From the NCBI RefSeq assembly GCF_900120375.1, contig NZ_LT635480.1, forward strand, positions 434,001 to 498,000: a DNA stretch of 64,000 bases, in the 5' to 3' direction. Below the pieces are notes generated by a model. That model saw nothing but the letters and a program-made list of their open reading frames with translations. It ran no database searches and had not been told where the DNA came from. A program made the position numbers and the translations under genes. Origin of the DNA: Ndongobacter massiliensis. Its GTDB lineage: Bacteria; Bacillota; Clostridia; Tissierellales; Peptoniphilaceae. Every line of letters starts with the position of its first letter. The stretch's first letter is position 1. Positions 301-23,786 of this stretch are shown here, in pieces.

Positions 301-318
301 TCCCTCTTCCGAGGGATC
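288..318 (+). promoter_or_regulatory. Programmed -1 ribosomal frameshift site with stem-loop
   Basis: CCCAAAC at 288-294 sits exactly in the X XXY YYZ register of the upstream frame (codons CCA AAC, re-pairing as CCC AAA). Four bases downstream a perfect 8-bp stem begins: GATCCCTC (299-306), loop TTCC, GAGGGATC (311-318). Slippage moves translation from the upstream frame into the frame that runs uninterrupted to 605. This is the conserved mechanism for making the long tail assembly chaperone of long-tailed phages. The 4-base spacer is slightly short compared with typical sites. Confidence 0.9.
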
Positions 319-605
319 CCAAAGTGCGGCGGGCAGTTGCCGCGAAATATTTTTCCAGCGAAGCATGGGAAGATGCCTACCAAATGGCAACGGCTGAAGA
401 AAACCGGATGGCAAAATATGCCGGGTGCAGCCTGTTAGCCTTGCAGGATCTTCCCTTGTCTTTGTACCTACTGATTAAAAAAGACTCGTGGATTGAATCC
501 ATGCATACCAGTGAAGAGAGTCGCGAGGTCTTAGCAACGCTATGGCGCTTACAACAGACCAAAGCAGACCTTAAAAAAATCCGAGAAAAGGAGGTGGAGA
601 AATGA
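294..605 (+). CDS. Frameshift extension (T part) of tail assembly chaperone
   Basis: About 103 residues are reached only by -1 slippage at 288-294; no start codon with a ribosome binding site opens this frame near its beginning. The conceptual fusion joins the upstream chaperone to a segment beginning LLIPLPRDPKVRRAV and ending in a charged helix (TKADLKKIREKEVEK). In lambda-like tails the T domain recruits the major tail protein to the chaperone-tape measure complex. The stop at 603-605 overlaps the tape measure ATG at 602 (ATGA), so the two are translationally coupled. Confidence 0.8.
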   Translation, partial: LLIPLPRDPKVRRAVAAKYFSSEAWEDAYQMATAEENRMAKYAGCSLLALQDLPLSLYLLIKKDSWIESMHTSEESREVLATLWRLQQTKADLKKIREKEVEK

Positions 606-3445: not shown

Positions 3446-4125
3446 TCACATTAAATGGCATTCCTGCAGAAAGTCTTGGCGTTGTCTTTTCACCGATCAC
3501 GTCTTTCCCTGCTCCGCAGTTACGAAAAGAAGAGGTGATCGTTCCTGGGCGCGACGGGGTGCTCTGGCGCGATGATCACACGATGGCGCCCGTTGAGCTT
3601 TTGTTGGACGGACATGTTCTCGACGGTTCGCGGGCGGCTTTCTTTGACTGGTGCCGTGGGGGCGGAAAACTCATTTTTGATGAGCAACCGGACCGATATC
3701 GGAAGGCCTCTTTTTTATCATTGGACACATCATATCTATCAGGCGATGAGCGTTTGCTGTCTTTCCAACTCCGTTTTTCTGTGGATCCCTTTGCAAGGCT
3801 GTTCTCAGGAGATGTACCAACGACATATGGCAAGACTATCCAAATCGTCAATCCATATCCGCTGGACGCCTATCCGTCCTACACCATCACTGGAAGCGGC
3901 GAGATCACGATCAAGCAATCGGGGCGGACGGTTTTCAAGGTGGAAGATGTTATCGACCGCGTAGAGCTGGAGGCGGAATCGGATCTTGTACATCGCGAGC
4001 TGGTTTCCCTCGAAAAACAGGCGTCCGGAGAAATTCCGATTTTGCGAGCCGGAGAGACGACGGAGCTATCCGTAGAAGGTAATGTAACGGATGTCAAAAT
4101 TACGCCGCATTGGAGAGTGCTATGA
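3442..4125 (+). CDS. Distal tail protein (Dit-like)
   Basis: This 227-residue protein begins MITLNGIPAESLGVV and contains VPGRDGVLWR and a SFQLRFSVDPF segment, as expected of the siphovirus tail component (Dit) family. Dit forms the hexameric hub at the tail tip that joins the tube to the baseplate. The gene starts with ATG overlapping the tape measure stop (ATGA, 3442-3445) and ends overlapping the next start. Its place between the tape measure and the tail-endopeptidase gene is canonical. Confidence 0.88.
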   Translation: MITLNGIPAESLGVVFSPITSFPAPQLRKEEVIVPGRDGVLWRDDHTMAPVELLLDGHVLDGSRAAFFDWCRGGGKLIFDEQPDRYRKASFLSLDTSYLSGDERLLSFQLRFSVDPFARLFSGDVPTTYGKTIQIVNPYPLDAYPSYTITGSGEITIKQSGRTVFKVEDVIDRVELEAESDLVHRELVSLEKQASGEIPILRAGETTELSVEGNVTDVKITPHWRVL

Positions 4126-6827: not shown

Positions 6828-6828
6828 A

Positions 6829-8634
6829 ATGGCACAATTTACGTACTATGGCTCTTGGGAAAACGTCGATGTGCGGTATAGCGTATCGCAAAATCAAGCG
6901 GCGAATACCACGACGATAACTGCCGACGCCTACCACCGCAGACCGGGTGCGGGCGGCGGTTCTTATGAGTACTCCGGCGTCAATTTCGCATTGACAATAG
7001 CTGGCAACACAAAATCTCGGTCATGGACGTGGGACAGGCTGCCATCCGGCGGCGAGCGGCTTATTTTGAGTCACAGCGTAACGATTCCGCATAACTCGGA
7101 CGGCTCTCATGCGCCCGTATCCATCGCCATCTACTGCGCAACCGGGAGTTCGTCTCTTGGTACGGTTTCGGCGTCACAGAGCATTTCTCTTGCTACAATT
7201 CCGCGCGCAGCGTCAACGAGCGTCGACAAAACAACGGTCACCATCGGAGAATACGGACCGATCGTTACGGTCGATCGTAAAAACGCGTCTTTTAAGCATA
7301 AGCTATTTTTGAACCTAAATGGCACGGATAAGAGATACTACTATCCATACGATATCCCGTCCGGGCTTGGAAAAACAACGATACAATTTAATCCGCCCAT
7401 ATGGCTCTGTGAGTGGGTGCCAAACGCGGAGTCGATGATGTGTACGCTTGGCGTGTACACCTATCAAGCGGATGGCAAAACGCCTGTCGGAGCGACGGGG
7501 GTAAATATCCGCCTCGATGTTCCGAAGGGCGTGCAGCCGACCATAAAATCTCACGAAGTAAAGCCGATTAAAAACGGAATGGACGGCAACTATTGGCAAA
7601 ACCACACGTTCGCCGGGGTATCTTTTACGTGGGGACTCTGGCGCGCAGACCAGCTTTTCGGCGCGCAGGTAGATACCGTGCAATTTTATGCGGACGGCGC
7701 TTTACAAACATTTACGCGATCAAAAAATGCGGCACTCTTTAAAGCGGATAGTACCGGGATTTCAGCAACATTTACTACCCATCAAGTTGGGCTTCGCGGG
7801 TACAAAATTGTTTTAACGGACACCCGCGGGCGTACGGCGGTGGCGGAAGGCACCTATCCGGTTGTGACCTATTTTCCTCCGCAGATTCTTTCGTGCACCG
7901 CGGAGCGCTCCGATTCCGCCGGGAACCCAGATCCATCTGGCGCATATGCGCGTCTTTCTTGCAAAATCCGTCTTTCAAAAACCTATGATAATTTTGGAAA
8001 ACTACGCGTTCAAAGGAGTGACGGAAATACGACGGAACAAGTGCTTTCTGAGTCAAATATAAAGATATGGGATTCGGACGCCTTTACAATAACGCGCGTT
8101 GATGTGAATGTCCTTTTGGACAAGACGTATACGTACACTTTTACACTATCGGATAAGGCAACAAAGGCAGAACCGAGAACGGCGCGCATTGGTCCCGGAG
8201 AAATTTTGATGGACTTATCGCCGCATGGATTTAGTGCGGGGTGTCCGGCAAAGGACTATGAGGCTTCCTTGCGACAAGGCAATTACATGCTGACCGTCGG
8301 AAAAAATTCGGGAATTCGCGCGAAAGAATATAACGGTGGAACGCCTCTTCGCGAGGTGGACTTACTTGGACTTGCAGGAATTCGCGGCATTAGGATAACA
8401 AAAACCATCAATAGCGGATTTATCAATCTGACAAATGACGACTTAGGCATTGGACAAGGGGAGGCGCTAAATTATACGTGGGGAATCCAGCCTGTCTATG
8501 AGCCGGACGCGGGAATCATGTATACGACAATTCAGCCAACGGTAAATGGTATGTACGTGTATATACGAAGCGAGTTGTCAAGCAAAAGACCGCCGGACGG
8601 ACTCAATATCACGCTGCACATTATGCGATTTTAG
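6829..8634 (+). CDS. Siphovirus tail/baseplate protein, DUF859-like
   Basis: This 601-residue protein begins MAQFTYYGSWENVDVRYSVS, and its early part (tyrosine- and serine-rich, with SRSWTWDRLPSGGE and IPHNSDGSHAPV) resembles the DUF859 family found in streptococcal and other Gram-positive siphophages. Genes of this kind lie between the tail endopeptidase and the lysis genes and are thought to contribute to host recognition. It starts one base after the upstream stop. The C-terminal third (after about 440) looks beta-rich and may be the variable host-contact part. Family assignment is from recall of its look, not a search. Confidence 0.75.
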   Translation: MAQFTYYGSWENVDVRYSVSQNQAANTTTITADAYHRRPGAGGGSYEYSGVNFALTIAGNTKSRSWTWDRLPSGGERLILSHSVTIPHNSDGSHAPVSIAIYCATGSSSLGTVSASQSISLATIPRAASTSVDKTTVTIGEYGPIVTVDRKNASFKHKLFLNLNGTDKRYYYPYDIPSGLGKTTIQFNPPIWLCEWVPNAESMMCTLGVYTYQADGKTPVGATGVNIRLDVPKGVQPTIKSHEVKPIKNGMDGNYWQNHTFAGVSFTWGLWRADQLFGAQVDTVQFYADGALQTFTRSKNAALFKADSTGISATFTTHQVGLRGYKIVLTDTRGRTAVAEGTYPVVTYFPPQILSCTAERSDSAGNPDPSGAYARLSCKIRLSKTYDNFGKLRVQRSDGNTTEQVLSESNIKIWDSDAFTITRVDVNVLLDKTYTYTFTLSDKATKAEPRTARIGPGEILMDLSPHGFSAGCPAKDYEASLRQGNYMLTVGKNSGIRAKEYNGGTPLREVDLLGLAGIRGIRITKTINSGFINLTNDDLGIGQGEALNYTWGIQPVYEPDAGIMYTTIQPTVNGMYVYIRSELSSKRPPDGLNITLHIMRF

Positions 8635-8642
8635 GAGGAAAC

Positions 8643-8876
8643 ATGGATATCCAAGAACTGAAAGATCAAAAAGAGCGCCTGAAAAAGACGCGCGAAGATG
8701 AGCAGGCGGCGCTATCCGATCTGTATGTGGAGGTTGCCGCCGCGGAAGCAAAAGCCGGGGAAGTGCGAAAAAAAGCGACGGCAAAAAGTGAGCGCATTGC
8801 AGCGATTGATCAGGCGCTTTTACGCTTACAAATTGCCGAGGAGGTGATGATCGCCCCGGCAGGAGAAGAGGTGTAG
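8643..8876 (+). CDS. Small coiled-coil phage protein
   Basis: Seventy-seven residues, rich in Glu, Lys and Ala, form one predicted coiled coil (residues about 3-60, heptad-like DQKERLKKTREDEQ and AAEAKAGEVRKK). A good ribosome binding site (AGGAGGAAAC) precedes the ATG. Small coiled-coil proteins are common between fibre and holin genes in Gram-positive phages, but I cannot assign a function. It lies 8 bases after the DUF859 gene and 1 base before the next gene, so it is co-transcribed. Confidence 0.7.
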   Translation: MDIQELKDQKERLKKTREDEQAALSDLYVEVAAAEAKAGEVRKKATAKSERIAAIDQALLRLQIAEEVMIAPAGEEV

Positions 8877-8877
8877 T

Positions 8878-9312
8878 ATGCAGGAATTAAGTACATTAGT
8901 CGGACTCGATCAGGCGATATCCACACTACTATCGCTGGCGTGGATTGTTGTGATTATCCTTATCGCCAAGCACGTCCCCGGATGGATTGAGCGCTTTATG
9001 GAAATCTCACAGGAGATGACACGCGCCTTAGAGCGTCAATCACAGGTTACAGAGCGCAACAGCACGCTCATGGAAAAGACCGAGGAAGCGCACGCGGGAA
9101 TGACTACCGTGATATCCGAGCAGACGCGCGAAGTGCAAGCGCTGCGGGAAGTTATACGGACGATGGAGGAGATCACTGCCCGCGTCGACAAAAAAGCGGA
9201 CGAGCTCCATGTGCAGGGAAACAGCATAAAGGATTTGAGCAAGGAGCAAACGCGAATCTTAAAGGAGCTGTACAAGGAATTTACTGGAAAACCCTACGCA
9301 GACTCTTTTTAG
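8878..9312 (+). CDS. Membrane-anchored coiled-coil phage protein
   Basis: A 144-residue protein has one N-terminal membrane segment (about residues 17-37, LLSLAWIVVIILIAKHVPGW) followed by a long charged helix to the end with heptad spacing. The architecture (one membrane helix plus cytoplasmic or external coiled coil) and place before the amidase suggest a lysis-module or tail-associated accessory. It could be a holin-like or spanin-like helper, but a separate two-helix holin is found at 10525. Function unassigned. Confidence 0.65.
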   Translation: MQELSTLVGLDQAISTLLSLAWIVVIILIAKHVPGWIERFMEISQEMTRALERQSQVTERNSTLMEKTEEAHAGMTTVISEQTREVQALREVIRTMEEITARVDKKADELHVQGNSIKDLSKEQTRILKELYKEFTGKPYADSF

Positions 9313-9483
9313 CGCGGACGCTAAAAAAAAAACGGCACTTCAGAATCAAAAATAAGGCGATTTTATGCGATTAGACGACCATTGATACCTTTTTACATGC
9401 AAAATGCAAGGATGAAGTCGTCAGACGCCGTAGCGGGCGAATCGCTGTTTTTGAGCGTGTGGACAAATGAAAAATCGGAAAAA

Positions 9484-9505
9484 AGGCGCTTTGGCGCCTA
9501 TTTTT
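9484..9505 (+). terminator. Intrinsic terminator between tail genes and amidase
   Basis: AGGCGC (9484-9489), loop TTTG, GCGCCT (9494-9499), then ATTTTT. It lies between the stop at 9312 and the amidase start at 9526. A second inverted repeat at 9306-9327 spans the upstream stop codon but has no T tract. Together they mark the end of the tail operon or an attenuation point before the lysis genes. Confidence 0.55.
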
Positions 9506-9525
9506 ATGCAAAAAAGGAGGCATAA

Positions 9526-10506
9526 ATGGCATATCAGTATATCGATAGCGGACGTGCGCGAAGTTATGACGTCGGACGCGGCGGAAAAAAGATTGACCGC
9601 ATTGTTATCCATCACTGGGGGACGCGCGGACAGCGTTTTGAGAATGTAGTGCGGTGGTTTTTGTATAGCGCGCCCACATCCGCACACTACGTCGCGGAGG
9701 CAGGACGCGTGCAAAAGGTCGTGGATGAGGCGGACACCGCATGGCACGCAGGGATCTATGATATCAATCAACGGAGTATCGGAATCGAATGCAGACCGGA
9801 GGCAACCGATGAAGACTACGAAACTATTGGAGAACTTGTCTGTGATATCTGGAGAAGACACGGAAAAATTCCGCTAACACCGCACCGAAGATATGTAGCA
9901 ACCGATTGTCCGGGTGTATATGACCTGGACCGCATTGCCCGTATCGCAGAAAAATACTATAGCGGACAGGCCCCGCGTGAGGAGCTTCCGCAAGACACTG
10001 TGCCAACACCTGATCTTTTACGCGTACAAGTCGGCGCCTACCGCGTACGGGAAAATGCCGCCGCCATGGAAAAAAAGCTGAAAGAGCGTGGATATGATAC
10101 CTATGTTACATCGTCCAACGGCTTGTATCGTGTGCAGGTGGGAGCCTATAAAAACGTACAAAACGCAGCAAAAATGGCAGAAAGCTTGCGCAATGACGGT
10201 TTTGATACCTATATCGTAGGGCATGGCATCCCCGAAAAAGAGACGGGCATTGACGGCGTATCAGGCTATCCTGAAACGGGGACTTTTTATCCGAACGACG
10301 TTATCAATGTGCGCAGATCGCCATCGACAGATGGGGAAGTCGTCGCACAGTACCATCCGGGCGAATCGGTGACCTATGACAGCGTGTATATCACGGGCGG
10401 CTATGTATGGATCAGCTACATCGGAGCAAGCGGCAAACGCAACTATCTGGCTTGTCGGACGTATCGGGACGGCAAACGCGGCGCGCTCTGGGGGCATATC
10501 GAGTAA
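9526..10506 (+). CDS. Endolysin: N-acetylmuramoyl-L-alanine amidase with SPOR and SH3-like domains
   Basis: The 326-residue lysin cuts the amide bond between muramic acid and the stem peptide. Residues about 20-150 form an Amidase_2 (PGRP-like) fold: the zinc-site start IVIHHWG, a middle TAWHAG and a TPHRRYVATDCPG segment holding His and Cys/Asp positions. Residues about 164-235 hold two tandem repeats each opening with RVQVGAY, typical of a SPOR peptidoglycan-binding domain. The C-terminal 70 residues (INVRRSPSTDGEVVAQY) look like a bacterial SH3 wall-binding domain. A strong AAGGAGG precedes the ATG. The next gene is the holin. Confidence 0.92.
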   Translation: MAYQYIDSGRARSYDVGRGGKKIDRIVIHHWGTRGQRFENVVRWFLYSAPTSAHYVAEAGRVQKVVDEADTAWHAGIYDINQRSIGIECRPEATDEDYETIGELVCDIWRRHGKIPLTPHRRYVATDCPGVYDLDRIARIAEKYYSGQAPREELPQDTVPTPDLLRVQVGAYRVRENAAAMEKKLKERGYDTYVTSSNGLYRVQVGAYKNVQNAAKMAESLRNDGFDTYIVGHGIPEKETGIDGVSGYPETGTFYPNDVINVRRSPSTDGEVVAQYHPGESVTYDSVYITGGYVWISYIGASGKRNYLACRTYRDGKRGALWGHIE

Positions 10507-10524
10507 AAAGGAGAGGAGGTAAAA

Positions 10525-10770
10525 ATGGAGCAGATCACAATGTTGGGACTCTCGGCAATTGTCGTCGGACTGGTCGAGGTGGTAAAGCGTGCTGGACTGC
10601 CTGATCGCGTGGCGCCAATAGCTGCGCTTGCGATCGGTATCGGTATCGCCTTTATCGGCAAAACATGGCTACCCACGCAAGGAGCGGCAGATATCATCCT
10701 GTATGGTCTCATCATGGGGCTGTCCTCGATGGGGCTGTACTCAGGCGGACGAGCAATCGTGGAAAAGTAG
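10525..10770 (+). CDS. Phage holin
   Basis: An 81-residue protein has two to three hydrophobic segments (about 7-20, 29-46 and 55-72) and a short charged tail. It follows the endolysin by 18 bases with a strong ribosome binding site (GGAGAGGAGG). Holins of this size and topology open the membrane at the lysis time and release the endolysin. The assignment rests on topology and position. Confidence 0.8.
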   Translation: MEQITMLGLSAIVVGLVEVVKRAGLPDRVAPIAALAIGIGIAFIGKTWLPTQGAADIILYGLIMGLSSMGLYSGGRAIVEK

Positions 10771-10822
10771 GAATGACACCATAGGCGAAACAGTCCGGGA
10801 TAAAAAAACTATACACAAAATC

Positions 10823-10850
10823 AGCCGCTCCTTGTGGGCGGCTTTTTTTT
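10823..10850 (+). terminator. Intrinsic terminator after the lysis genes
   Basis: AGCCGC (10823-10828) pairs with GCGGCT (10838-10843), followed by eight T. It closes the late transcript after the holin and separates it from the cargo genes. Confidence 0.85.
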
Positions 10851-10939
10851 GTATGGCATAGACAAATGAAAAAGTGTCCTTCGATATTTACGAAATATAA
10901 AATATTGGGTATAGTATGACCAGAAAGGAGGGAATGGCT

Positions 10940-11167
10940 GTGGAAAAAAAATACGAAAGTTATACGAATATATTGTTTCCAAAATTCAGCTTCTATAGAG
11001 GGGTAGGACGCGTTTTTGACCTTTTTGGAAGAACCAATAGCTATAATATATCGAAAACGCCGAAAGAAGCAGACGAAAAAGCCATTCGCTCGGATTGGCT
11101 AACCGTCGGAAATGATATTAGAAACGCGGAAAGTTCTTTGAGAAAAAAGTATGGTTCAAAAGGATAA
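10940..11167 (+). CDS. Small cargo protein upstream of the DUF2335 gene
   Basis: A protein of about 75 residues (MEKKYESYTNILFPKFSFY...), soluble and basic, without a recognised domain. I choose GTG 10940 because AGGAGG (10927-10932) is 7-8 bases upstream; the in-frame ATG at 10934 is only 1-2 bases from it. The gene overlaps the next one by 17 bases, so the two are coupled and probably act together. It lies between the phage lysis terminator and attR, where lysogenic-conversion genes usually sit. Confidence 0.65.
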   Translation: MEKKYESYTNILFPKFSFYRGVGRVFDLFGRTNSYNISKTPKEADEKAIRSDWLTVGNDIRNAESSLRKKYGSKG

Positions 11168-12303: not shown

Positions 12304-12460
12304 TAAAAAAGCTTTCGACCGCAGTCATGTGTTGTACATAAAATTCTGTACATATTACCAAAAATAGCCCAAATGGTAAAAAATCAAAGTGCAGACGGAG
12401 TAGAAAATCCGCTTAAAAGCTTGGTTTCACGCATCTAAGGATGGCGGAAAACATGGGTTT

Positions 12461-12510
12461 TCTAACTTTTAATCAGGGTGTCCGGGGTTCGAATCCCCGA
12501 TGGGTCACCA
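12461..12510 (+). other. Prophage attachment site attR: 3' fragment of tRNA-Lys
   Basis: The segment has an anticodon loop CTTTTAA (UUU, Lys) at 12466-12472, a perfect T-arm with GTTCGAA loop, the acceptor 3' strand ATGGGTC and an encoded CCA ending at 12510. The 5' half is absent: upstream bases do not pair with the acceptor strand or the anticodon stem. A tRNA 3' fragment downstream of lysis and cargo genes is the usual mark of integrase-mediated insertion into a tRNA gene. The intact tRNA-Lys should be at the left end, outside this window. Confidence 0.85.
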
Positions 12511-13811: not shown

Positions 13812-16295
13812 TCAAATATGATTCCTGCCCTCTCCATAATTAACGAACATTTCGATTAACATACCCATTTCAGATAGAGGAAGGTGAAAAGAGAAAGTTT
13901 CTTCAAGCGTAACAAAATTCTTTTCAATAGAATAAAATATCTCAGGGTGGTTTTTAATGGCGATTTTTGATTTGGTATCATTTAACGGTTCCTTTTTTAT
14001 GCATCGTTCGATAAGAAAAACTCCGTGATACAAAAAGCGGATTAGAATTTCATCGGATATTGTTAGATGCAAATCGCTCAGAATGCCGGTCAGTGATTTA
14101 TATAAAAATTGACAAGCCTTCCGCGCATTCAAAAAAACCAAAATATCATTGAAAGCATTCTCAGACAGATCTTTTAATAGATCTAATGTATGGCGATCTC
14201 CAGTCATGCTTTTTTTTGATTCTGTGGGTGTTGGTATATTAACCTTTAGTTCCGCTAATGTGCAATCCAGAGAGTTCATTTTTTCCAACAACCGTGCTAA
14301 TTGAGCCAGATTGAGACTAGGAATGATTAAAAGGTTTTTTGGTAATGGGTTTGGAAGTAATTGTTGTAATGTATCCACATTATCTGTTGCCAAAACCATA
14401 CCCTTGCCACGGTCGACTTCTTTCAAGAATTTGCTAAGGCTATCACAATTCTCTGCATTTTTTGATTCCGGATTACCATGGGATAGAAATTCGGTTTCTG
14501 TACTTGTGTTAGGTAGAGAAAAGCTGTGCGTGGTTACATTTTCATTTATATTGTTTAAATAAACTTTGTAATTTTGTAGCAGATCAGCGTCTTTTGACAA
14601 AAGGATCAGTTGAATATATACCTTATTAATCCATATGGAACTTAACTCCAAATAAACTTCAATATACTTAATTTCATACTCTGGTAAAGAAAGCATATAA
14701 CGAGAATGTAAGATTGAAGCAATTTTAAGCGCTATTTCCCTATACTTAGAAGTTGAAGCTTTTTCACAGGCAATCAACTCTTTTTTTAAATTCAGTTGCT
14801 CATTTTCTGCTGAAGGTGCAAGGTGATAGTCTTGAATATTTCCTTGTCGTATACTTCTTATGACGGAAGACAAGTGATACAGCAGCCCATATAAAAGTTT
14901 TTCATTTTTCAAGATATCCATGTCGTGAAAGCTGGGCAGCAAAGAAGCATAGATATCTTGAAGAAGCAAAGAATGAACAGCATTTAGTGGGAGTGTAGTT
15001 ATATGAGTGATGTACTCGCGACAATTTTTTTTAATCTCTCCGCTTACCTCTTGAAAATTTTGCAATTGGTGAAATGGTATATTGCGATTTAATCGATAAA
15101 TAAAATCCAGCTCTAGATTGTTCCGCAAAGCTGAAAAAGTAAGCGAATCGTTCTGAAATAGATTTAAGAACGCATCCATTTCATCTCGCCGAGAGGGTTC
15201 TAACTGAATACAGTTAAGAAGGCTCTCAGATAAATCATAGAGAGTTAATTCAATATATATGGAATTTCTATTACCGCTTTTATATAATGCTCGTGCACAA
15301 GCTCCCTGGATTTCGCTCTGAAGCTGTGCAATATTATTTTTATAGTGTGCCATTAAAAAACATTTCAAAACTTCTTTTGGAACGTGAATAGTTTTATTTA
15401 TCCGTTTTGTCTCCTGTTGAAAGATTTGTAAGGCAAGGACAAGTACTTCCTCAATGGAACGTTGGTCAAGGGCCGGAATGCAAGTTTTCACAGGAAACAT
15501 TTCCATCATTTCCTTTGGCAGACTTGAAGCGGTATAAATACCAATGATACGTGTTTTCTTGTAATTGCTCCATTTATTTGTGAGTAGTTGTAGGATTTTA
15601 TGTGGTAAAGATTCAATATGGTCTAAAATGAGAAATGAGTTTTTTGTTTGTTCTAATAATCCAACAGCTTCACTGGACTTGTTTTTATTCCCAAACAGCA
15701 ATGTTTTGGCATGATCAAAAGAGTCAAAATTATAAGTTGCACAATCAAATATTATGGGGGATTGTTGTTCGCTTATTACACCTGATTGTTGGGCAAAAAG
15801 CACTATATCTTTAGAAAAAGTACTTTTTCCTACGAATTTTGGCCCATAAAGTAGGACATTTAACCCAGCCGGGGGATATAAAATAGCGGCTTGGACTTCA
15901 GAAATAACCTTAGCCATGCGACTACGATCATTCATGATGTAATGTTCAAATGCGAGCTTCTTTTTTGGGAGGTCTTTTACAGTTGTGTTTTTAGTTGCTT
16001 TATAAAAAGCAAGCGTTTTGTTTTTCGGAAGGATTGAAGGCACATAAGATTCTGAGTCTGATAGTACTGAATTGACTAAGGACCTTAGCAGGAAGCGTGT
16101 GGGACGGCCTTCAGTTTTTACTAGGATGCCCGAACGGTGCAGGCGATTTAGTCGTCGGGAGAGATTTGCACGATCAATATGCAACTGCTTTGCTAAGTTA
16201 GTTGCATCGGTTTGAATTGAGGAAAAAGGTGTATTAATATCAAAATTTGCTAAATTTTTTCGTAATTGCTGAAGTATAAGTTCATCAGTGCTCAT
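13812..16295 (-). CDS. LevR-type PTS-regulated transcription activator, degenerate sigma-54 motif
   Basis: This 827-residue protein has an N-terminal winged helix (about 25-70, LAKQLHIDRANLSRRLNRL), an AAA+ domain (about 115-345) and PRD-like/EIIA-like regulatory parts to the end, including a final PRD-like block (NHPEIFYSIEKNFVTLEETF). Walker A is GPKFVGKST (151-159); Walker B is FLILDH, with Glu replaced by His. Where LevR proteins have LFGH..GAFTGA this one reads LFGNKNKSSEAVG, so the sigma-54 contact loop is missing. It diverges from the PTS operon that it very likely controls through PTS phosphorylation. Because the loop is lost, activation by the usual sigma-54 route is doubtful. Confidence 0.82.
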   Translation of the reverse strand: MSTDELILQQLRKNLANFDINTPFSSIQTDATNLAKQLHIDRANLSRRLNRLHRSGILVKTEGRPTRFLLRSLVNSVLSDSESYVPSILPKNKTLAFYKATKNTTVKDLPKKKLAFEHYIMNDRSRMAKVISEVQAAILYPPAGLNVLLYGPKFVGKSTFSKDIVLFAQQSGVISEQQSPIIFDCATYNFDSFDHAKTLLFGNKNKSSEAVGLLEQTKNSFLILDHIESLPHKILQLLTNKWSNYKKTRIIGIYTASSLPKEMMEMFPVKTCIPALDQRSIEEVLVLALQIFQQETKRINKTIHVPKEVLKCFLMAHYKNNIAQLQSEIQGACARALYKSGNRNSIYIELTLYDLSESLLNCIQLEPSRRDEMDAFLNLFQNDSLTFSALRNNLELDFIYRLNRNIPFHQLQNFQEVSGEIKKNCREYITHITTLPLNAVHSLLLQDIYASLLPSFHDMDILKNEKLLYGLLYHLSSVIRSIRQGNIQDYHLAPSAENEQLNLKKELIACEKASTSKYREIALKIASILHSRYMLSLPEYEIKYIEVYLELSSIWINKVYIQLILLSKDADLLQNYKVYLNNINENVTTHSFSLPNTSTETEFLSHGNPESKNAENCDSLSKFLKEVDRGKGMVLATDNVDTLQQLLPNPLPKNLLIIPSLNLAQLARLLEKMNSLDCTLAELKVNIPTPTESKKSMTGDRHTLDLLKDLSENAFNDILVFLNARKACQFLYKSLTGILSDLHLTISDEILIRFLYHGVFLIERCIKKEPLNDTKSKIAIKNHPEIFYSIEKNFVTLEETFSFHLPLSEMGMLIEMFVNYGEGRNHI

Positions 16296-16594: not shown

Positions 16595-17011
16595 ATGGTT
16601 GGACTTATCACAGTAACACATGGCGATTTTGGAAGGGAACTGGCAAAAAGTGCAGAATTAATTGTGGGGGAGAGTAAATATGTAACTAGCATAGGATTGC
16701 ATTTAGGGGATACATTGGAAACTTTAACCAAAGAAATTGTTGATGCCGTAAGAAAGATGCATGAACAAACGAATGAAGGCGTGTTGATTCTTATCGATCT
16801 ATTTGGTGGAACCACTTCGAATGCAGCTGCGCAAGCGACCTACCAATTAGAAGCAGAAGTTCCCATTTATTGTTTAACAGGGCTAAACTTGCCGATGTAT
16901 TTAGAAATTATCATGCAAAGGGAATTTTCAACACTGTCAGAGTTAGTAAAAATTGGTAAAGAGGTTGGGGAAAAAAGCGTTGTTAGCTTACATGAAAAAA
17001 TTGGAATTTAG
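16595..17011 (+). CDS. PTS EIIA component, mannose family
   Basis: A 138-residue cytoplasmic protein receives phosphate from HPr and passes it to EIIB. The fold start MVGLITVTHGDFGRELA contains the phosphorylated His (residue 9), and ILIDLFGGTTSNAA is the conserved second motif. The length is that of a free-standing EIIA of the ManX type. AAAGGAG lies 7 bases before the ATG. First gene of the nine-gene operon; 9 bases separate it from EIIC. Confidence 0.93.
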   Translation: MVGLITVTHGDFGRELAKSAELIVGESKYVTSIGLHLGDTLETLTKEIVDAVRKMHEQTNEGVLILIDLFGGTTSNAAAQATYQLEAEVPIYCLTGLNLPMYLEIIMQREFSTLSELVKIGKEVGEKSVVSLHEKIGI

Positions 17012-17020
17012 GAGGGTATT

Positions 17021-17797
17021 ATGTCAATTTCAATAATTCAAGCAATTTGTATAGGTTTTGTGTATTACCTGACCAATAATGGTGTACCTTGGTTAACCGG
17101 ACTTGGTAGTGTATCTTTACGCCAGCCAATTGTTTCTGGAACGGTAGTAGGGATTATTCTCGGCAGACCGGTCGAAGGATGTATTATTGGCGCCACGATT
17201 AACACTTTGTACCTGGGATTTGTCAACGCAGGAGGAACTTTGCCAACGGATCCGGGTGTTGGAGGTGTAGTAGGTACTGCATTGGCACTTGCTTCCGGAG
17301 CGGATGCTCAAGTTGCAATGACAATCGCAGTCCCACTTGGTATTATGGGCACCATGGTATGGAACCTTCGACAAACCGTTAATATTTTCTTTGTGCATAA
17401 AATGGATCAATATGCCAAAGAAGGAGATATCGGAAAAATGGTGTTTTGGCAAATATGGCCGACGCAACTCTTCGGAGCATTGGTAACAGTAATTCCATGT
17501 GCATTGTTAGTGTATTTTGGAGCAGATGCTACACAAGCTGTTTTAGAAAAGCTGTCAGGAACACCTCTTCATATTTTGTCAGTCATTGGTGGCATTCTTC
17601 CTGCGTTGGGAATTGCTATGATTTTGCGCATGCTAAACACCCGTAGTGGTATTTTACTGTTTTTCATATTGGGATTTTTCATTCGCACTTTCTCTGGCTT
17701 AGGTATGCTGCCAATAGCGATTTTCGCAGCCATTATTGCGTATTTTTACAGTGACCTCAAGTTTCAAAAAGTTATTAAGGAGGAGGACGAACAATGA
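17021..17797 (+). CDS. PTS EIIC component, mannose family
   Basis: A 258-residue membrane protein with seven or so hydrophobic segments and the ManY-type core (SVSLRQPIVSGTVVGIILGR, then GATINTLYLGFVNAGG, and TLPTDPGVGG). With EIID it forms the sugar channel. It has a good ribosome binding site (TTAGGAGGG) and overlaps the EIID start by 4 bases. Confidence 0.93.
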   Translation: MSISIIQAICIGFVYYLTNNGVPWLTGLGSVSLRQPIVSGTVVGIILGRPVEGCIIGATINTLYLGFVNAGGTLPTDPGVGGVVGTALALASGADAQVAMTIAVPLGIMGTMVWNLRQTVNIFFVHKMDQYAKEGDIGKMVFWQIWPTQLFGALVTVIPCALLVYFGADATQAVLEKLSGTPLHILSVIGGILPALGIAMILRMLNTRSGILLFFILGFFIRTFSGLGMLPIAIFAAIIAYFYSDLKFQKVIKEEDEQ

Positions 17798-18660
17798 CTG
17801 AATATGCAGAGAAGGAAACAAATATGCTTGACAAGAAAACTACTCCTTCGGGACGGCTTTTGACAGACGCTGACCTGCGTAGATCATACTGGGCCTTTGA
17901 GGTATGGGCACAAGCCTGTTGTAGTTATGAACGGTTACAAGCACCCGGCTTTTTTATGGGTATGAGAAATGTAATTCACAAATTTTATAAGGATCAAAAA
18001 GAAGAGCGCATTGAAGCATGTCAAAGACACATGGAGTTTTATAATTCAGAATTTGCTTTAGTGGGTCCTGTGATATTAGGTTTGACCATTTCTTTAGAAG
18101 AACAAAAAAAAGCAGGTCAAGAAATTGATGGCTCCATGATTTCGGCCATTAAAACGTCTCTGATGGGGCCGCTTGCCGGGATTGGCGATACGCTTCGCCA
18201 AGGCACGTTGATTCCTATTATCGGATCTATTGCCATTTCACTCGGCGTTGAAGGAAATTTATTTGCTCCTATCTTTTATATGGTTGCGACCCTGGGATTA
18301 AACTTCGGTATTTCCTATTTCCTTTTTAAGAAGTCTTATTTTGCCGGACGAGAATTTGTTTCGGAGTTCTTTAGAGGAAATAAAATGGAAAGAATCATGA
18401 CTGGCGTCACAGCAATGGGGGCAATTACTATCGGGGCCTTGGCGTCGGGAACTGTTAAAGCAGCAACACCTCTGTCGATTCAATTGGGTGAGAATGTCCT
18501 CGAAATTCAACAACTGATCGACAAGATCTTGCCAAACCTACTGCCTTTGATCGTAGTATTTTTAACTTTACATTTGCTTAATAAGAAAATGAGCGTGAAT
18601 AAGGTGTTGGGATTGATGATTGTTGCTTCTATTGTGCTAGGATTTTTTGGGGTTTTGTGA
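17794..18660 (+). CDS. PTS EIID component, mannose family
   Basis: A 288-residue protein of the ManZ type: long amphipathic N-terminal part (SYWAFEVWAQACCSYERLQA), the conserved GPLAGIGDTLRQGTLIPII signature and C-terminal membrane segments. The start ATG overlaps the EIIC stop; a second ATG at 17824 is possible, since the first ten residues are not family-like. Confidence 0.93.
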   Translation: MTEYAEKETNMLDKKTTPSGRLLTDADLRRSYWAFEVWAQACCSYERLQAPGFFMGMRNVIHKFYKDQKEERIEACQRHMEFYNSEFALVGPVILGLTISLEEQKKAGQEIDGSMISAIKTSLMGPLAGIGDTLRQGTLIPIIGSIAISLGVEGNLFAPIFYMVATLGLNFGISYFLFKKSYFAGREFVSEFFRGNKMERIMTGVTAMGAITIGALASGTVKAATPLSIQLGENVLEIQQLIDKILPNLLPLIVVFLTLHLLNKKMSVNKVLGLMIVASIVLGFFGVL

Positions 18661-18669
18661 GGTGATGGA

Positions 18670-19614
18670 ATGGAATTACTGATTACATCGAACAGTTTTG
18701 GAAAAAATGATCCTTCTGCCCGGCAACGTTTGCGCGATGCCGGGTGGGATATTCGGGAAAACCCAAAAGGAACAATATTGAGCGAGTCTGACATGGTAGA
18801 AGCTGTAAGGGGCGTTGATGCGATTATTTTGGGCTCCGATCCCGTGACTTCCGCAGTACTAGACTCTGCCCCGGAATTGAAGTTAATATCTCGATATGGA
18901 GTTGGGATTGACAACATTGATATGGAAGCTGCTAAAAAACGGGGAGTGGATATTAGAGTGACTAGGGCAGCTAACGCGGAAGCTGTTGCTGACTTTACAC
19001 TGGGCTTAGTTTTGTCTTTGCTTCGTCACATTCCAAAAGCTAATGATGATTTACAAAATGGAACATGGAAAAAAAGGCGAGGATTTGATCTTTATCAAAA
19101 GACAGTGGGCGTGATCGGATGTGGAGCAATTGGAAGAAGGGTTATTTCACGTCTTAAAGGTTTTCAGTGTAAAATTTTAGGATATGATCTTAAGCCGGAT
19201 TCTAAATATTTTTTGGATAACAATATAAAACAAAGCAGCCTTGAGGAAATTCTTGAAAAATCTGACATCATTACTTTACATGTTCCGAATGCAAGCGGGG
19301 TGACGCTTATTGGCGAAAAAGAATTGGCAAAAATGAAACCGGATGCTGTTTTGGTTAATACAGCTCGCGGAGGCCTTGTCGATGAGCAGGCGGTTTTAAG
19401 AGCTTTAAAAAGTCGGAATCTATACGGATATGGTGCAGATGTGTTTTCTTCCGAGCCGGAAATACCCTCTTATTTTAATGGGTGCGAGGATTTAAATCTC
19501 GTATTAACGCCTCATATGGCTGCGGTAAGTGCTGAAGCTACGTCCGAAATGACCAGGATGGCCGTGGATAATGTTTTGGAATACTTTCAAAGAAAAGGAA
19601 ATGATGACCAATGA
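18670..19614 (+). CDS. D-isomer 2-hydroxyacid dehydrogenase
   Basis: A 314-residue NAD-dependent oxidoreductase of the SerA/GyaR-like family. The Rossmann motif is VGVIGCGAIGRRV; catalytic positions are Arg in VNTARGGLVDE, Glu in SSEPEIP and His in LTPHMAAVS. Its place inside the PTS operon, between EIID and EIIB, says that it handles an intermediate of the same pathway, perhaps interconverting a 2-keto and a D-2-hydroxy acid. It ends with ATGA overlapping EIIB. Confidence 0.88.
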   Translation: MELLITSNSFGKNDPSARQRLRDAGWDIRENPKGTILSESDMVEAVRGVDAIILGSDPVTSAVLDSAPELKLISRYGVGIDNIDMEAAKKRGVDIRVTRAANAEAVADFTLGLVLSLLRHIPKANDDLQNGTWKKRRGFDLYQKTVGVIGCGAIGRRVISRLKGFQCKILGYDLKPDSKYFLDNNIKQSSLEEILEKSDIITLHVPNASGVTLIGEKELAKMKPDAVLVNTARGGLVDEQAVLRALKSRNLYGYGADVFSSEPEIPSYFNGCEDLNLVLTPHMAAVSAEATSEMTRMAVDNVLEYFQRKGNDDQ

Positions 19615-20084
19615 AAAATATAGTTTGGACGCGCATCGATGATCGACTCGTTCATGGCCAAGTAATGACGCAGTGGGTTCAGTATACGAAGGCCAATGAA
19701 GTGTTGATTGTGGACGATGCTGTAGCAGAGGACTCTTTTTTGCAAATGGTAATGAAAGCCAGCATGCCAAGTTCGATTGCTTTAAAGGTTCAGAATGAAA
19801 AACAAGCAGTTAATTATTTAACCGAAACCTCAAAAGATGAAAAAATTATTTTGCTGGTAAAGACGCCGACTACTTTGGACCGACTTACTGATGCAGGCGT
19901 CGAATTATTGACGGTAAATGTCGGCGGGATTGGTTCAAAAGCTGGACGGAAGAAATTGTATAAAAACATTGCAGCCAGTGAAGAAGAGCGTGAGGCATTT
20001 CGCAATTTATTGAAAAAAGGCATTGATGTCTTTTTTCAGGTTATTATTACTGAATCAAGAGAAGATGTTAAGGACTATTTATAG
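19611..20084 (+). CDS. PTS EIIB component, mannose/fructose/sorbose family
   Basis: A 157-residue cytoplasmic protein beginning MKNIVWTRIDDRLVHGQVMT. The His in RLVHGQV (residue 15) is the phosphorylation site, and VNVGGIGSKAGRKKLYKNI is a conserved later segment. It completes the A-B-C-D set, unusually separated from EIIC/EIID by a dehydrogenase gene. ATGA overlap with the gene before. Confidence 0.92.
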   Translation: MKNIVWTRIDDRLVHGQVMTQWVQYTKANEVLIVDDAVAEDSFLQMVMKASMPSSIALKVQNEKQAVNYLTETSKDEKIILLVKTPTTLDRLTDAGVELLTVNVGGIGSKAGRKKLYKNIAASEEEREAFRNLLKKGIDVFFQVIITESREDVKDYL

Positions 20085-20096
20085 AAGGAGTTTTAT

Positions 20097-20753
20097 ATGA
20101 ACAAGGAGAATGTCTTAAACAATATTAAGGTTAACAAAGTTTTAACTATTTGCAGAGGGGTCTATGGAGATGCGCTCTATGATTTGGCAAAAGCCTTGTA
20201 TCTTGGTGGCATTCGAATGATGGAAGTAACCTTTGACCAAGGCGACCCGGAGGCTGTTACAAAAACTTCTACTGCTATCAAACAAATACGAGAGCAGTAT
20301 GATGATATGATGGTTGGTTCTGGTACGTGTTTGACCATTGAACAGGTTCACGCGACGAAAGAAGCAGGGGGCCTTTTTGTGTTATCTCCAAATGTAGACA
20401 AAGAAATTATTATGGAGACAAAGCGTTTGGGCATGGTATCAATTCCGGGAGCAATGACACCTACCGAGGTTTTACAAGCTCATACTTATGGTGCAGATTT
20501 AGTGAAAATTTTTCCTGCAGCTTGGTTAGGACTATCCTATCTAAAGGATTTGAAGGGGCCAATTAATAATGTAGATTTTTTAGCCACTGCAGGAGTGAAT
20601 GAAGAGAATTTTGCAGACTTTTTAAGTGCAGGATATGTCGGAGCTGGCATTAGTAGTCGCTTGGTAGATAAGAAACTGATCGCGGCAAAAGATTTTGCTG
20701 AATTGACAAGGCGTGCAAAAGTTTTTACCAAAATAGCAAAAGCTTATAACTGA
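20097..20753 (+). CDS. KDPG/KHG-type aldolase
   Basis: A 218-residue class I aldolase of the Eda/DgaF family, which splits 2-keto-3-deoxy sugar-acid phosphates to pyruvate and an aldehyde phosphate. Visible motifs: MMEVTFD (catalytic Glu), GSGTCLT, LSPNVDKEI, and the Schiff-base Lys in DLVKIFPAAWLG. Ribosome binding site AAGGAG. In known mannose-type PTS operons for glucosaminate a similar aldolase is the last step. The ammonia-lyase partner is absent here, so the substrate differs. Confidence 0.88.
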   Translation: MNKENVLNNIKVNKVLTICRGVYGDALYDLAKALYLGGIRMMEVTFDQGDPEAVTKTSTAIKQIREQYDDMMVGSGTCLTIEQVHATKEAGGLFVLSPNVDKEIIMETKRLGMVSIPGAMTPTEVLQAHTYGADLVKIFPAAWLGLSYLKDLKGPINNVDFLATAGVNEENFADFLSAGYVGAGISSRLVDKKLIAAKDFAELTRRAKVFTKIAKAYN

Positions 20754-20764
20754 GAGGAGCGGGG

Positions 20765-21937
20765 ATGAAGGCCCTTGTATTTGGTGCGGGTAAAATTGCT
20801 AGAGGATTTGTTGGACAACTCCTTTTCATGAATCATATAGACATCACCTTTGTAGATGCATCAAAGCGTCTTGTTGATGGTCTTAGACAACAATCGTACT
20901 ATCTGACATCTGTGTTAGGTAATCCAGAGAAAAATACAAGGGTCGATCGCTTTCGAATTTTGAACAACGAGGAGGTTGATCTTCTTTACCAAACTTTTCA
21001 ATGTGCAGATGCATTTTTCATCTCTGTTGGTGGAAACAACCTTGATCATGTAGCACCGCTTGTCGCTAAGTGTGTTGAGAACACATCTGTGATAAAAGAT
21101 CGCTCGTTCATTTTGTGTGAGAACCGAGTGCATGCTGCAGATGACTTTCGGAATATGGTGTACGCTTATTTATCGGAAAGTGGACAATCGAAGTGGAAAA
21201 ATCATTACGGAGTTACAGAGGCTGTGATATTAAGAACAGCGACTGATCCACCTAAAAATGCAGATGTGCCGCCATACACAGTATGTGTCCAGGATTATTG
21301 GAAAATGCCTGTTGATGCATCCCGATATATCGGGGAACGCCTTCCGATTCCTCAGATCCAATGGACAGAGCGCTTTGGGGATTTGATGACGCAAAAGATG
21401 TACACGAATAACACAAGTAGTGCGATCATCGCTTACAACGGTTACTTGAAGGGATATCGTATTTTTTCAGAAGCATCGATGAATTCGGAAATTAATGCAA
21501 AACTAAAAGAAGGATATCAAGAAATTAATGAAACCCTTATTCGGGCTTTAGGAGTTTCGGAGGCTGATCAACTACAATTTGCAAAAAGAGCTGAGGAAAA
21601 ATATACGAATCCTTTGATTATCGATTATGTGACTCGTCACGGAAGGGACCCGATCAGGAAGTTGGGGCCAAATGAAAGGCTTATCGGTCCGGCAACATTG
21701 GCGCTACGGCATGGTGTGGTTCCCAATGTTATTATTGATGCTATATCCCGTGCGCTTTATTTTGACCCCGAGGAAGATGAGTCAGCGCAAGAATTGAAAA
21801 AAATCCGGAGAAATTATGGGGTTCCTTATATTCTGAGACATATTTGTGGGCTATCAGAAGAGGATCCACTGTATCATTGTGTCTTAGCGCATGAAAAAAA
21901 GCTTAGAGAGGCGGGTGCTTTTCTTGGGCATGAATAA
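20765..21937 (+). CDS. Mannitol-1-phosphate dehydrogenase-like oxidoreductase (first copy)
   Basis: A 390-residue protein of the polyol-specific long-chain dehydrogenase superfamily (MtlD, UxaB, UxuB). The N-terminal NAD site is MKALVFGAGKIARGFVGQLL. The usual catalytic motif Lys-x4-Asn-x2-His is Lys211, Asn216 and Ser219 here: the His is replaced by Ser (KMYTNNTSS). The C-terminal domain has KLGPNERLIGPA, as in MtlD. Likely to oxidise a polyol phosphate or reduce a keto acid in this pathway, but activity cannot be assumed with the altered motif. Confidence 0.78.
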   Translation: MKALVFGAGKIARGFVGQLLFMNHIDITFVDASKRLVDGLRQQSYYLTSVLGNPEKNTRVDRFRILNNEEVDLLYQTFQCADAFFISVGGNNLDHVAPLVAKCVENTSVIKDRSFILCENRVHAADDFRNMVYAYLSESGQSKWKNHYGVTEAVILRTATDPPKNADVPPYTVCVQDYWKMPVDASRYIGERLPIPQIQWTERFGDLMTQKMYTNNTSSAIIAYNGYLKGYRIFSEASMNSEINAKLKEGYQEINETLIRALGVSEADQLQFAKRAEEKYTNPLIIDYVTRHGRDPIRKLGPNERLIGPATLALRHGVVPNVIIDAISRALYFDPEEDESAQELKKIRRNYGVPYILRHICGLSEEDPLYHCVLAHEKKLREAGAFLGHE

Positions 21938-22967
21938 TGTTGTAATTTTTGGAGCAGGGCAAACGGGAAGGGGATTTATTAATCATCTGCTAATGAAATC
22001 CGGATATAGAGCGACTTTTTTTGAAAAAAACAAAAATATTGTCGAGTCCCTGGCGAGTGGCGAATATAAAATATTTTCCATTGATGGTTCAGTTGCATCA
22101 ATTAAAAATTATGAGATTTTTTTGCCTGAAGAGCATACCGTTAAAAAAATTTTGGACTCGGCAAGTATATGCTTTATTTCGGTCGGACTGAACAACATTC
22201 CAGAAGTGAGTGTGACCTTACAAAAAGCGCTTGTAGGTAGACGAAAACCGCTTTGGATTATTACGGCTGAAAATGGGCAAAATCCATCCAAACCCCTCCA
22301 AGCTATAGCACAAGAAGGGTTGCCGGTATCGATTGCGGAGGGCATAGTTTTTTGCACCACTCTCGCCAAAGGTCGAGATATTATAAGTGAAGATTTGGAA
22401 TGGTTTCCCTATACACAGGGCGTGTTTTCTTCAAAGTTGCCTTTTGTTGGTTTTGTCGAAGCAGATGTTCCATTATTAATGAAAAGAAAATTGTATACTT
22501 ATAATTGTATTAGTGCGGCTATTGCCTATTTTGGTGCCTACAAAGGTTATCTGGATTACTATTCAGCGGCGACAGATCCGGAAATTGCAGACTTTATAGA
22601 AAAACTAAGGAAGGAAATTGACACTCCTTTGGCAGAACATTTTTTGATATCGATTGAGGAACAAATGGATTTTTCCCTTCGGGCGGTTCAAAAGTTTCAG
22701 AATAAAAATATACCGGACTCTATTGAGAGAAATGCTCATGATGTCAGACGAAAACTTGGGCCTTCTGAACGCTTATTAGGTCCACTTCTTCTTTTATTAG
22801 AAAAAAAACATGATGTTTCATATCTTGAAGAATGTATTGTCTATGCCTTAATCTATGGCATAAGTAGAGAGAAAATGAGCGACACAGAGGCGAAAAACCT
22901 TCTTCTCGATATTCCGGAGGAAAATCGGAATAATATTTTAAGAAAGGTTTATGAGTATAATGTTTAA
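21930..22967 (+). CDS. Mannitol-1-phosphate dehydrogenase-like oxidoreductase (second copy)
   Basis: About 345 residues; same superfamily as its neighbour but clearly diverged. The NAD motif is VVIFGAGQTGRGFI. The catalytic motif reads Lys187, Asn192, Ser195 (KLYTYNCIS), again Ser for His. KLGPSERLLGPL matches the C-terminal signature. I place the start at ATG 21930, which overlaps the stop of the first copy; an upstream in-frame ATG at 21891 adds a poor N-terminus. Two tandem paralogues sharing the same substitution suggest a dedicated subfamily, perhaps a heteromeric enzyme. Confidence 0.78.
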   Translation: MNNVVIFGAGQTGRGFINHLLMKSGYRATFFEKNKNIVESLASGEYKIFSIDGSVASIKNYEIFLPEEHTVKKILDSASICFISVGLNNIPEVSVTLQKALVGRRKPLWIITAENGQNPSKPLQAIAQEGLPVSIAEGIVFCTTLAKGRDIISEDLEWFPYTQGVFSSKLPFVGFVEADVPLLMKRKLYTYNCISAAIAYFGAYKGYLDYYSAATDPEIADFIEKLRKEIDTPLAEHFLISIEEQMDFSLRAVQKFQNKNIPDSIERNAHDVRRKLGPSERLLGPLLLLLEKKHDVSYLEECIVYALIYGISREKMSDTEAKNLLLDIPEENRNNILRKVYEYNV

Positions 22968-23613
22968 AATATATTTAGACAGTGCGGATCAAAGAATTGG
23001 CGAATGGATTGAGGCTTATTCCTTGGATGGTGCGACATCCAATCCGACAATTTTAGAGAAAGGAAAGTGTTCTGCGGAACAATTTGTGTCATACATCCCT
23101 GAAGGGAAGGCTTTTTTTATTCAACTTGTTTCAAGGAAGAAAGAAGAAATGATAGAAGAAGCCATAAAATTGAAAAAAAAACACCCTGGTGTCATTGTAA
23201 AAATACCTGTCACAAGGGAAGGTATTCAAGCAATTCCCTTCATTGAAGCACAAAAAATCCCTACACTTGCTACCGCGGTATACAGTTTGGAACAGGCCGC
23301 TCTTGCAATTCATAGTGGATGCTCTTACGTTGCCCCTTACGTTAATCGCATTTGCAATCTTGGTATTGATGGTGTGGAGGTTGCATTGAGCATTCAATCC
23401 TTTATTCGTCAACATGGTTATCCATGTCGGGTAGTTGCGGCAAGCTTTAAAAATCTATACCAGGTTCAGACTTTAATTGCCGGAGGCATTGACTCGATCA
23501 CTATTTCGCTGGAGTTGTTTGAAAAAATGGTTGATAATATTAATACCGATTTAGCTGTTCGTGTCTTTGAAGAGGATGCTAAAAAGCTTTCAAAAGTTAA
23601 AGGCTTTTCTTAG
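22960..23613 (+). CDS. Fructose-6-phosphate aldolase-like transaldolase
   Basis: About 217 residues of the small transaldolase/FSA family. DGATSNPTIL is the phosphate-side loop; the Schiff-base Lys is in IVKIPVTREG. Gln in FFIQLVS and Tyr in SYVAPYVNRI correspond to the residues that mark fructose-6-phosphate aldolase rather than true transaldolase. Predicted to cleave a ketose phosphate to dihydroxyacetone or a similar ketone and glyceraldehyde 3-phosphate. Start ATG 22960 fits the family; ATG 22951 is in frame too. Last gene of the operon. Confidence 0.85.
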   Translation: MFKIYLDSADQRIGEWIEAYSLDGATSNPTILEKGKCSAEQFVSYIPEGKAFFIQLVSRKKEEMIEEAIKLKKKHPGVIVKIPVTREGIQAIPFIEAQKIPTLATAVYSLEQAALAIHSGCSYVAPYVNRICNLGIDGVEVALSIQSFIRQHGYPCRVVAASFKNLYQVQTLIAGGIDSITISLELFEKMVDNINTDLAVRVFEEDAKKLSKVKGFS

Positions 23614-23737: not shown

Positions 23738-23786
23738 AAATCGAAACAAAGGCGGAGGAAAGAACCCTTCGCCTTTGTTTCGATTT
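23738..23786. repeat. Perfect 17-bp inverted repeat after the PTS operon
   Basis: AAATCGAAACAAAGGCG (23738-23754) and its exact complement (23770-23786) flank a 15-base loop. It lies 125 bases after the last PTS gene. No T tract follows on either strand, so it may be a bidirectional or factor-assisted terminator, or the footprint of a small mobile repeat. The rest of 23614-23914 holds only the tRNA promoter (TTGCCT/TAGAAT, near 23872-23900). Confidence 0.75.

Follow-up and report, generated by a model that had tools for sequence, protein, structure and literature searches.

Two-enzyme redox isomerisation or epimerisation is a feature of the sorbose (SorE/SorD) and idonate (IdnD/IdnO) routes. 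The L-sorbose (sor) operon joins a mannose-family phosphotransferase system (PTS) to a pair of oxidoreductases by which a sugar phosphate is isomerised through a hexitol phosphate, and the mannitol operon joins a PTS to a dehydrogenase of the MtlD fold. The D-glucosaminate (dga) operon combines a LevR-type regulator, a mannose-family PTS and a 2-keto-3-deoxy-6-phosphogluconate (KDPG)-type aldolase, and in the L-idonate/gluconate II (idn) pathway a redox pair inverts one carbon before KDPG aldolase acts. Here we describe an operon that resembles each of these systems in part. It occupies positions 16595-23613 (plus strand) of a 64,000-nucleotide stretch of Ndongobacter massiliensis DNA (contig NZ_LT635480.1, positions 434,001 to 498,000), referred to hereafter as the window. 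By open reading frame (ORF) calls, nine intact ORFs form a single tight operon in the order EIIA, EIIC, EIID, D-2-hydroxyacid dehydrogenase (HADH), EIIB, KDPG-type aldolase, two MtlD-like proteins (MtlD1 and MtlD2) and an FSA-type aldolase, and each of the nine proteins passed its Pfam gathering score. A first-pass annotation of the window had placed this combination, with a full mannose-type PTS, in one operon, and the gene set stands as it was read.

The operon is real and conserved. A profile scan of a genome collection recovered 140 relatives of MtlD2, of which the best 80 loci were kept and counted, with the gene content of each taken from tblastn; a single-sequence scan of the same collection gave no relatives. 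In three other Bacillota loci, from a Eubacteriales metagenome-assembled genome (L060), Breznakia pachnodae (L062) and Amedibacillus dolichus (L063), genes one to eight are arranged as in the window, with the same regulator divergent from them. Across the three, identity to the window proteins was 70-75% for EIIC, 66-67% for EIID, 52-54% for HADH and 41-45% for MtlD1; the KDPG-type aldolase was 63-65% identical in L062 and L063. Because the first eight genes recur in all three loci, the grouping exceeds chance, and the search for conserved co-occurrence that had been suggested as a check came out in favor of the cluster. Two named strains, B. pachnodae DSM 16784 and A. dolichus DSM 3991, carry the operon.

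The mannose-family PTS is complete, comprising EIIA (16595..17011; PF03610 (EIIA-man), 76.2 bits), EIIC of the mannose/sorbose family (17021..17797; PF03609 (EII-Sor), 229.7 bits), EIID of the mannose/sorbose family (17794..18660; PF03613 (EIID-AGA), 285.7 bits) and EIIB of the sorbose family (19611..20084; PF03830 (PTSIIB_sorb), 155.4 bits), all above the gathering scores. The least constant member of the operon is the FSA/TalC-type aldolase or transaldolase (22951..23613; PF00923 (TAL_FSA), 140.3 bits). No such gene was found in the flanks fetched for L060 and L062, and in L063 another ORF (206 aa) intervenes before it, so its inclusion in the set holds for the window and not as a constant feature. 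Its score was below the TIGR00875 equivalog cut-off (149.5 vs 245.95), and its nearest solved structures are FSAs, e.g. 9lkp and 1l6w. Intergenic distances range from -17 to +12 nt (with the MtlD2 start taken as 21930), and the nine genes are very likely co-transcribed. By eye, a clear Shine-Dalgarno-like stretch precedes six of the nine genes, those of EIIB and FSA are weaker, and none was seen close ahead of MtlD2.

The center of the operon is a tandem pair of MtlD-like proteins. MtlD1 (20765..21937; PF01232/PF08125 (Mannitol_dh/Mannitol_dh_C), 73/69 bits) is followed by MtlD2 (21930..22967; Mannitol_dh/Mannitol_dh_C (PF08125), 35/56 bits). Although the reading frame of MtlD2 extends back to 21891, its likely start is 21930, which gives an 8-nt overlap with MtlD1; this spacing is also the one most often seen elsewhere. 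Of the 80 kept loci, 73 have MtlD1 immediately 5' of a co-directional MtlD2. In the MtlD motif K....N..H, whose residues we take to have catalytic roles, the Lys and Asn were retained in all MtlD1 and MtlD2 rows. The motif His was present in none of the 73 MtlD1 rows, where Asn, Val, Cys or Ser replaced it, and in none of the 82 MtlD2-type rows, where the replacement was Ser or Ala; both window proteins, which are among these rows, carry Ser. The MtlD2 rows also include the paralog from the same genome and the seven loci that lack MtlD1, and an ordinary MtlD from L075 was taken out of them; two MtlD1 tblastn matches with no usable ORF (the second in L110, and L127) were left out. Our five-row MtlD reference set was mostly chosen by its NTGH motif, and the independent check comes from the two solved MtlDs, 3h2z and 5jnm, in which the motif His is present.

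The MtlD1-MtlD2 pair is a distinct, conserved module. In a tree of 58 MtlD1 and MtlD2 rows, the MtlD2-type proteins fell on one side of a branch with support of 100/99, and MtlD1 was separated likewise with weaker support (89/70). The window MtlD1 clustered with those of L060, L062 and L063 (99/96). An AlphaFold model of MtlD2 made from an eight-row alignment had a mean predicted local distance difference test (pLDDT) score of 86.8, with residues 1-14 below 50, and its best Foldseek matches were the MtlDs 5jnm (template modelling score, TM, 0.85) and 3h2z (TM 0.82). The first-pass annotation was right that two MtlD-like enzymes are present; the two make up a single conserved tandem whose motif is altered and are not of the ordinary mannitol type. 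The best scores against MtlD equivalog models were 231.2 for MtlD1 (cut-off 356) and 108.5 for MtlD2 (cut-off 404). Of five host genomes searched, three (Oceanobacillus jeddahense and two Enterococcus) encode an additional MtlD of the NTGH type, and none was found in Breznakia or A. dolichus. With a normal MtlD present in those three hosts, mannitol catabolism alone does not explain the pair; we rejected this role for it on these scores, the missing motif His and the separate NTGH-type enzymes. The substrate of the pair is probably a compound other than mannitol-1-phosphate. A shared H-to-Q change was considered as a marker of the pair and dropped, as 5jnm already has Q at that site.

The pair is spread through Bacillota, many of them from guts, and some Erwiniaceae, and its neighbors vary. 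An FGGY kinase was found in 55 of the 73 pair-bearing loci, 46 of which also have an MDR dehydrogenase, and a PTS EIIC or MtlA-type EII in 14, with L075 having both this and the kinase; one or the other is present in 68 of 73. The remaining five loci are L076, which has EIID and EIIA, and L073, L093, L107 and L127, which are cut by contig ends. A UlaG-like metal-dependent hydrolase was found in 39 of 73, including the FGGY loci L077, L079 and L084. In the seven kept loci that lack MtlD1, the MtlD2-type enzyme adjoins either an SDR (four loci) or a weakly IolO-like protein (three loci; best model 48.3 vs cut-off 300). The four SDRs are 54-64% identical to an SDR of the window genome that scores 300.6, just under the cut-off of 304, in the sorbitol-6-phosphate dehydrogenase subfamily. 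Each of the 80 loci therefore supplies the MtlD2-type enzyme with a possible redox or epimerising partner.

Several further arrangements were observed around these loci. Some pair loci contain an added glycosidase (GH2 in L055, GH35 in L057). The window genome has a paralogous cluster (L016, 6358-13412) with a mannose-family PTS, an SDR, an MtlD-like protein, DeoC, a DeoR-type regulator and an FSA nearby; the PTS-SDR-MtlD part has relatives in L064, L065, L068 and L070. In Izhakiella (L075, 183-5150), a cluster of a mannose-family PTS, an MtlD, an OMPdecase/HUMPS-family protein (PF00215) and, by eye, a SIS-like protein lies ahead of an FGGY-MtlD1-MtlD2-MFS cluster; its ordinary-looking MtlD scores 295.8 (cut-off 356) and keeps the motif His. 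A plasmid search returned eight records, all at about 28-31% identity, and those with names are called mannitol-1-phosphate dehydrogenase. By homology, genes of the pair are probably annotated in the same way.

The second linkage in the operon is between HADH and the aldolase. HADH (18670..19614; PF02826 (2-Hacid_dh_C), 174.5 bits) is PGDH/glyoxylate-reductase-like, reached the cut-off of none of the 23 listed NCBIfam models, and has 1wwk as its nearest solved structure. The KDPG/KHG-type aldolase (20097..20753; Pfam KDPG/KHG aldolase, 124 bits) exceeds the TIGR01182 cut-off (161.1 vs 156.05) and is the sole PF01081 protein in the window genome. Wherever a pair-bearing locus has the aldolase (10 loci), HADH accompanies it; L125 has HADH without the aldolase, and in L136, which lacks the pair, the aldolase occurs with no HADH. 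A Lys and a Glu that are presumably catalytic, the Lys forming the Schiff base, are conserved in all 13 aligned aldolases. After the Glu, TFDQ is found in the window, L060, L062, L063 and one L105 copy, a subclade apart from the other eight, which have SYTN (seven) or TLNT (one).

From sequence and gene context we propose, tentatively and with somewhat less than even confidence, that the operon is catabolic and serves a polyhydroxy carbon source, which would be processed by two redox steps of MtlD1 and MtlD2, a cleavage and an acid branch. The mannose-family PTS would import and phosphorylate the substrate. MtlD1 and MtlD2 would then carry out two successive NAD(P)-linked redox steps on the phosphorylated compound, each at a different carbon, the net effect being a redox-neutral isomerisation or epimerisation as in the sorbose and idonate routes. 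On the resulting ketose phosphate the FSA-type enzyme would act either by cleavage or by transfer of a C3 unit. A coupled acid branch would be formed by HADH and the KDPG-type aldolase: the former would set or remove a 2-keto group, and cleavage by the latter would yield a triose phosphate and a pyruvate-like fragment. We infer every reaction, the direction of each dehydrogenase and the substrate class; any of the three "dehydrogenases" may act as a reductase, so that the route overall may involve no net redox change. A C6 sugar acid or else a rare ketose or hexitol is the likeliest substrate. The neighbors of the pair in other loci include a D-galactonate-family MFS transporter in Erwinia (406.8 vs cut-off 395) and, in L076, galactarate/altronate dehydratase-family and HpcH/HpaI proteins, which would point to sugar acids.

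A number of results weigh against this proposal. In the tree, the window MtlD2 is a long branch with no close affinity to the MtlD2 proteins of L060, L062 and L063. FSA was found in only three of the 73 pair-bearing loci, and no KDPG-type aldolase was found in the fetched flanks of 63, so the pair does not need the aldolase. Two genes of the PF04295 dehydratase type are present in the window genome outside the operon. Near-mannitol PTS proteins stand beside the pair in L066 (462.9) and L078 (427.2; cut-off 468.4), RPE/AlsE-like epimerases are present in L071, L072 and L074, and both fit polyols or ketoses better than acids. The substrate class may therefore vary among loci, and in its different hosts the module may act on a number of related phosphorylated compounds.

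A rival explanation is a polyol or rare-ketose route that operates alone. Here the pair would make a ketose 6-phosphate from a hexitol or ketose phosphate and FSA would cleave it, while HADH and the aldolase would serve side chemistry such as pyruvate or glyoxylate reduction. The MtlD fold of the MtlD2 model is consistent with such a route, as are the near-mannitol PTS with MtlD1-MtlD2-FSA in L066, the PTS-MtlD1-MtlD2-RPE-like arrangement of L071, L072 and L074 (with FSA also in L072), and the sorbitol-6-phosphate dehydrogenase-type SDR partner in the paralogous cluster of the window genome. The invariable company of HADH with the aldolase, and the place of both among the PTS genes, are left unexplained, and we consider this explanation possible but rather unlikely. 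The earlier outline, in which MtlD-like enzymes oxidise a PTS product and FSA cleaves a ketose phosphate, was a fair guess and is still possible. Its further idea of an acid branch of the aldolase and the 2-hydroxyacid enzyme has gained support from their co-occurrence and from the lack of Edd described below.

The supply of KDPG was examined in the four operon-bearing genomes for the Edd/IlvD, PF04295 and PF13378 dehydratase families only. Within that scope, none of the four has an Edd above the TIGR01196 cut-off, and A. dolichus has no match at all. An ILVD/EDD-family member is present in three of the four, one of them IlvD-type by model; this is the window-genome protein (759 vs cut-off 618; edd 272.8 vs 708.25), which adjoins a GntP permease. 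PF13378 gave no match above cut-off in any of the four and weak sub-cut-off matches in all, and PF04295 is absent from three. One of the two window-genome PF04295 genes adjoins, by eye, LarA-like and GntP-like genes. Gnd is absent from the window genome, and there is no dehydratase among the nine operon genes. The PF04295 genes elsewhere in the genome could provide a 2-keto-3-deoxy acid from outside this operon; the usual KDPG supply is therefore either missing or provided from another operon. Other sugar-acid-like operons were seen in the window genome: GntP with the IlvD-type dehydratase (L140/L141), KdgT-like with LarA-like, kinase-like and PdxA-like genes (L143, by eye), and GntP-like and LarA-like genes (by eye) with a PF04295 protein (L144).

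These results weaken a classical Entner-Doudoroff pathway and, with it, a sugar-acid route to 6-phosphogluconate. KguD and GhrB reduce the 2-keto group of keto-aldonates. By analogy, the PTS would take up a keto-aldonate, HADH would reduce its 2-keto group, MtlD1 and MtlD2 would swap the configuration at C5 via a 5-keto intermediate, and Entner-Doudoroff steps would lead to the KDPG aldolase. The families of HADH and the aldolase would suit this, as would the sugar-acid transporter and dehydratase-family neighbors of other loci and an additional Foldseek match of MtlD2 to fructuronate reductase 4im7. The lack of Edd and Gnd and of a dehydratase in the operon argues against it, and we judge it unlikely. 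Salvage of a compound that is already 3-deoxy (a 3-deoxyhexonate, or 3-deoxyfructose from Maillard products), with HADH oxidising the 2-hydroxy group to a KDPG-type compound, would require no dehydratase and would suit the constant HADH-aldolase association and the negative Edd, PF13378 and PF04295 results, but it is quite improbable given the ILVD/EDD-family and PF04295 proteins noted above, PF04295-family genes inside the clusters of L076 and L105, the limited range of dehydratases searched, the possible incompleteness of the other three genomes and the lack of an obvious role for MtlD1, MtlD2 and FSA. A bolder form of our own proposal is that MtlD1-MtlD2 is a new two-protein phosphosugar redox isomerase or epimerase, here joined to a dehydratase-free HADH-aldolase branch that would consume 3-deoxy sugar acids or related compounds. 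We regard this as speculative and improbable. To our knowledge, no PTS pathway has been described for such compounds.

The divergent regulator (13812..16295, minus strand) is of the LevR/PRD type (PF00874, 48.7 bits vs 23), with an AAA-type domain (Sigma54_activat, 23 bits). GAFTGA is missing from this protein and from the regulators of L060, L062, L063, L080 and L083; it is present in the L071 and L074 homologues. According to the main text of a study that examined the motif in Clostridiales activators, GAFTGA is required to contact sigma-54 (PMC6615313); the words "aldolase" and "mannitol" do not occur in that text. No match to PF00309 or PF04552 (sigma-54) was found in the window genome, and the regulator presumably works with a different sigma factor. 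On the other side of the operon, an inverted repeat at 23738..23786, beginning 124 nt past FSA, has 21-nt arms (95% complementary) and a 7-nt loop and may be a terminator.

The G+C content is 40% in the operon and 36% in the regulator, compared to about 50% for 1-11000 and 24000-64000, and the segment looks to sit between an apparent prophage end and a tRNA-Gly. A match to MtlD2 at E 1e-15 or better was found in 10 of 130 genomes of the family, including the window genome, and in the others identity was at most 31% except in G087 (36%). Together with the AT-rich composition and the setting, this scarcity suggests that the segment was recently acquired. By eye, tail-like proteins, an amidase-like endolysin and a holin-like ORF mark a prophage right end at 4110-10770, and a fragment resembling a tRNA 3' end at about 12460-12500 may be an attachment site.

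No characterised operon with this gene set was found among the titles and abstract beginnings of the open-access literature (PMC), in agreement with the first-pass annotation, which knew of none. Relative to the sor operon, in which SorE is an MDR and SorD an SDR, both oxidoreductases here are MtlD-like, and HADH, the KDPG-type aldolase and FSA are added. The mannitol operon differs in that here the PTS is of the mannose family and there are two MtlD paralogs, which lack the motif His and score far below the MtlD equivalog cut-offs. Compared to dga, the MtlD pair, HADH and FSA are extra, and none of the nine genes encodes a D-glucosaminate-6-phosphate ammonia-lyase. The idn pathway uses other enzyme families and unphosphorylated substrates and requires Edd. 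As the pair recurs across many Bacillota beside kinases, PTSs and sometimes glycosidases, solving a single instance could lead to the re-annotation of a widespread module and uncover an unrecognised carbon source. The operon is apparently uncharacterised and extends the known PTS catabolic operons with one that is built round an apparently unstudied MtlD-like pair.

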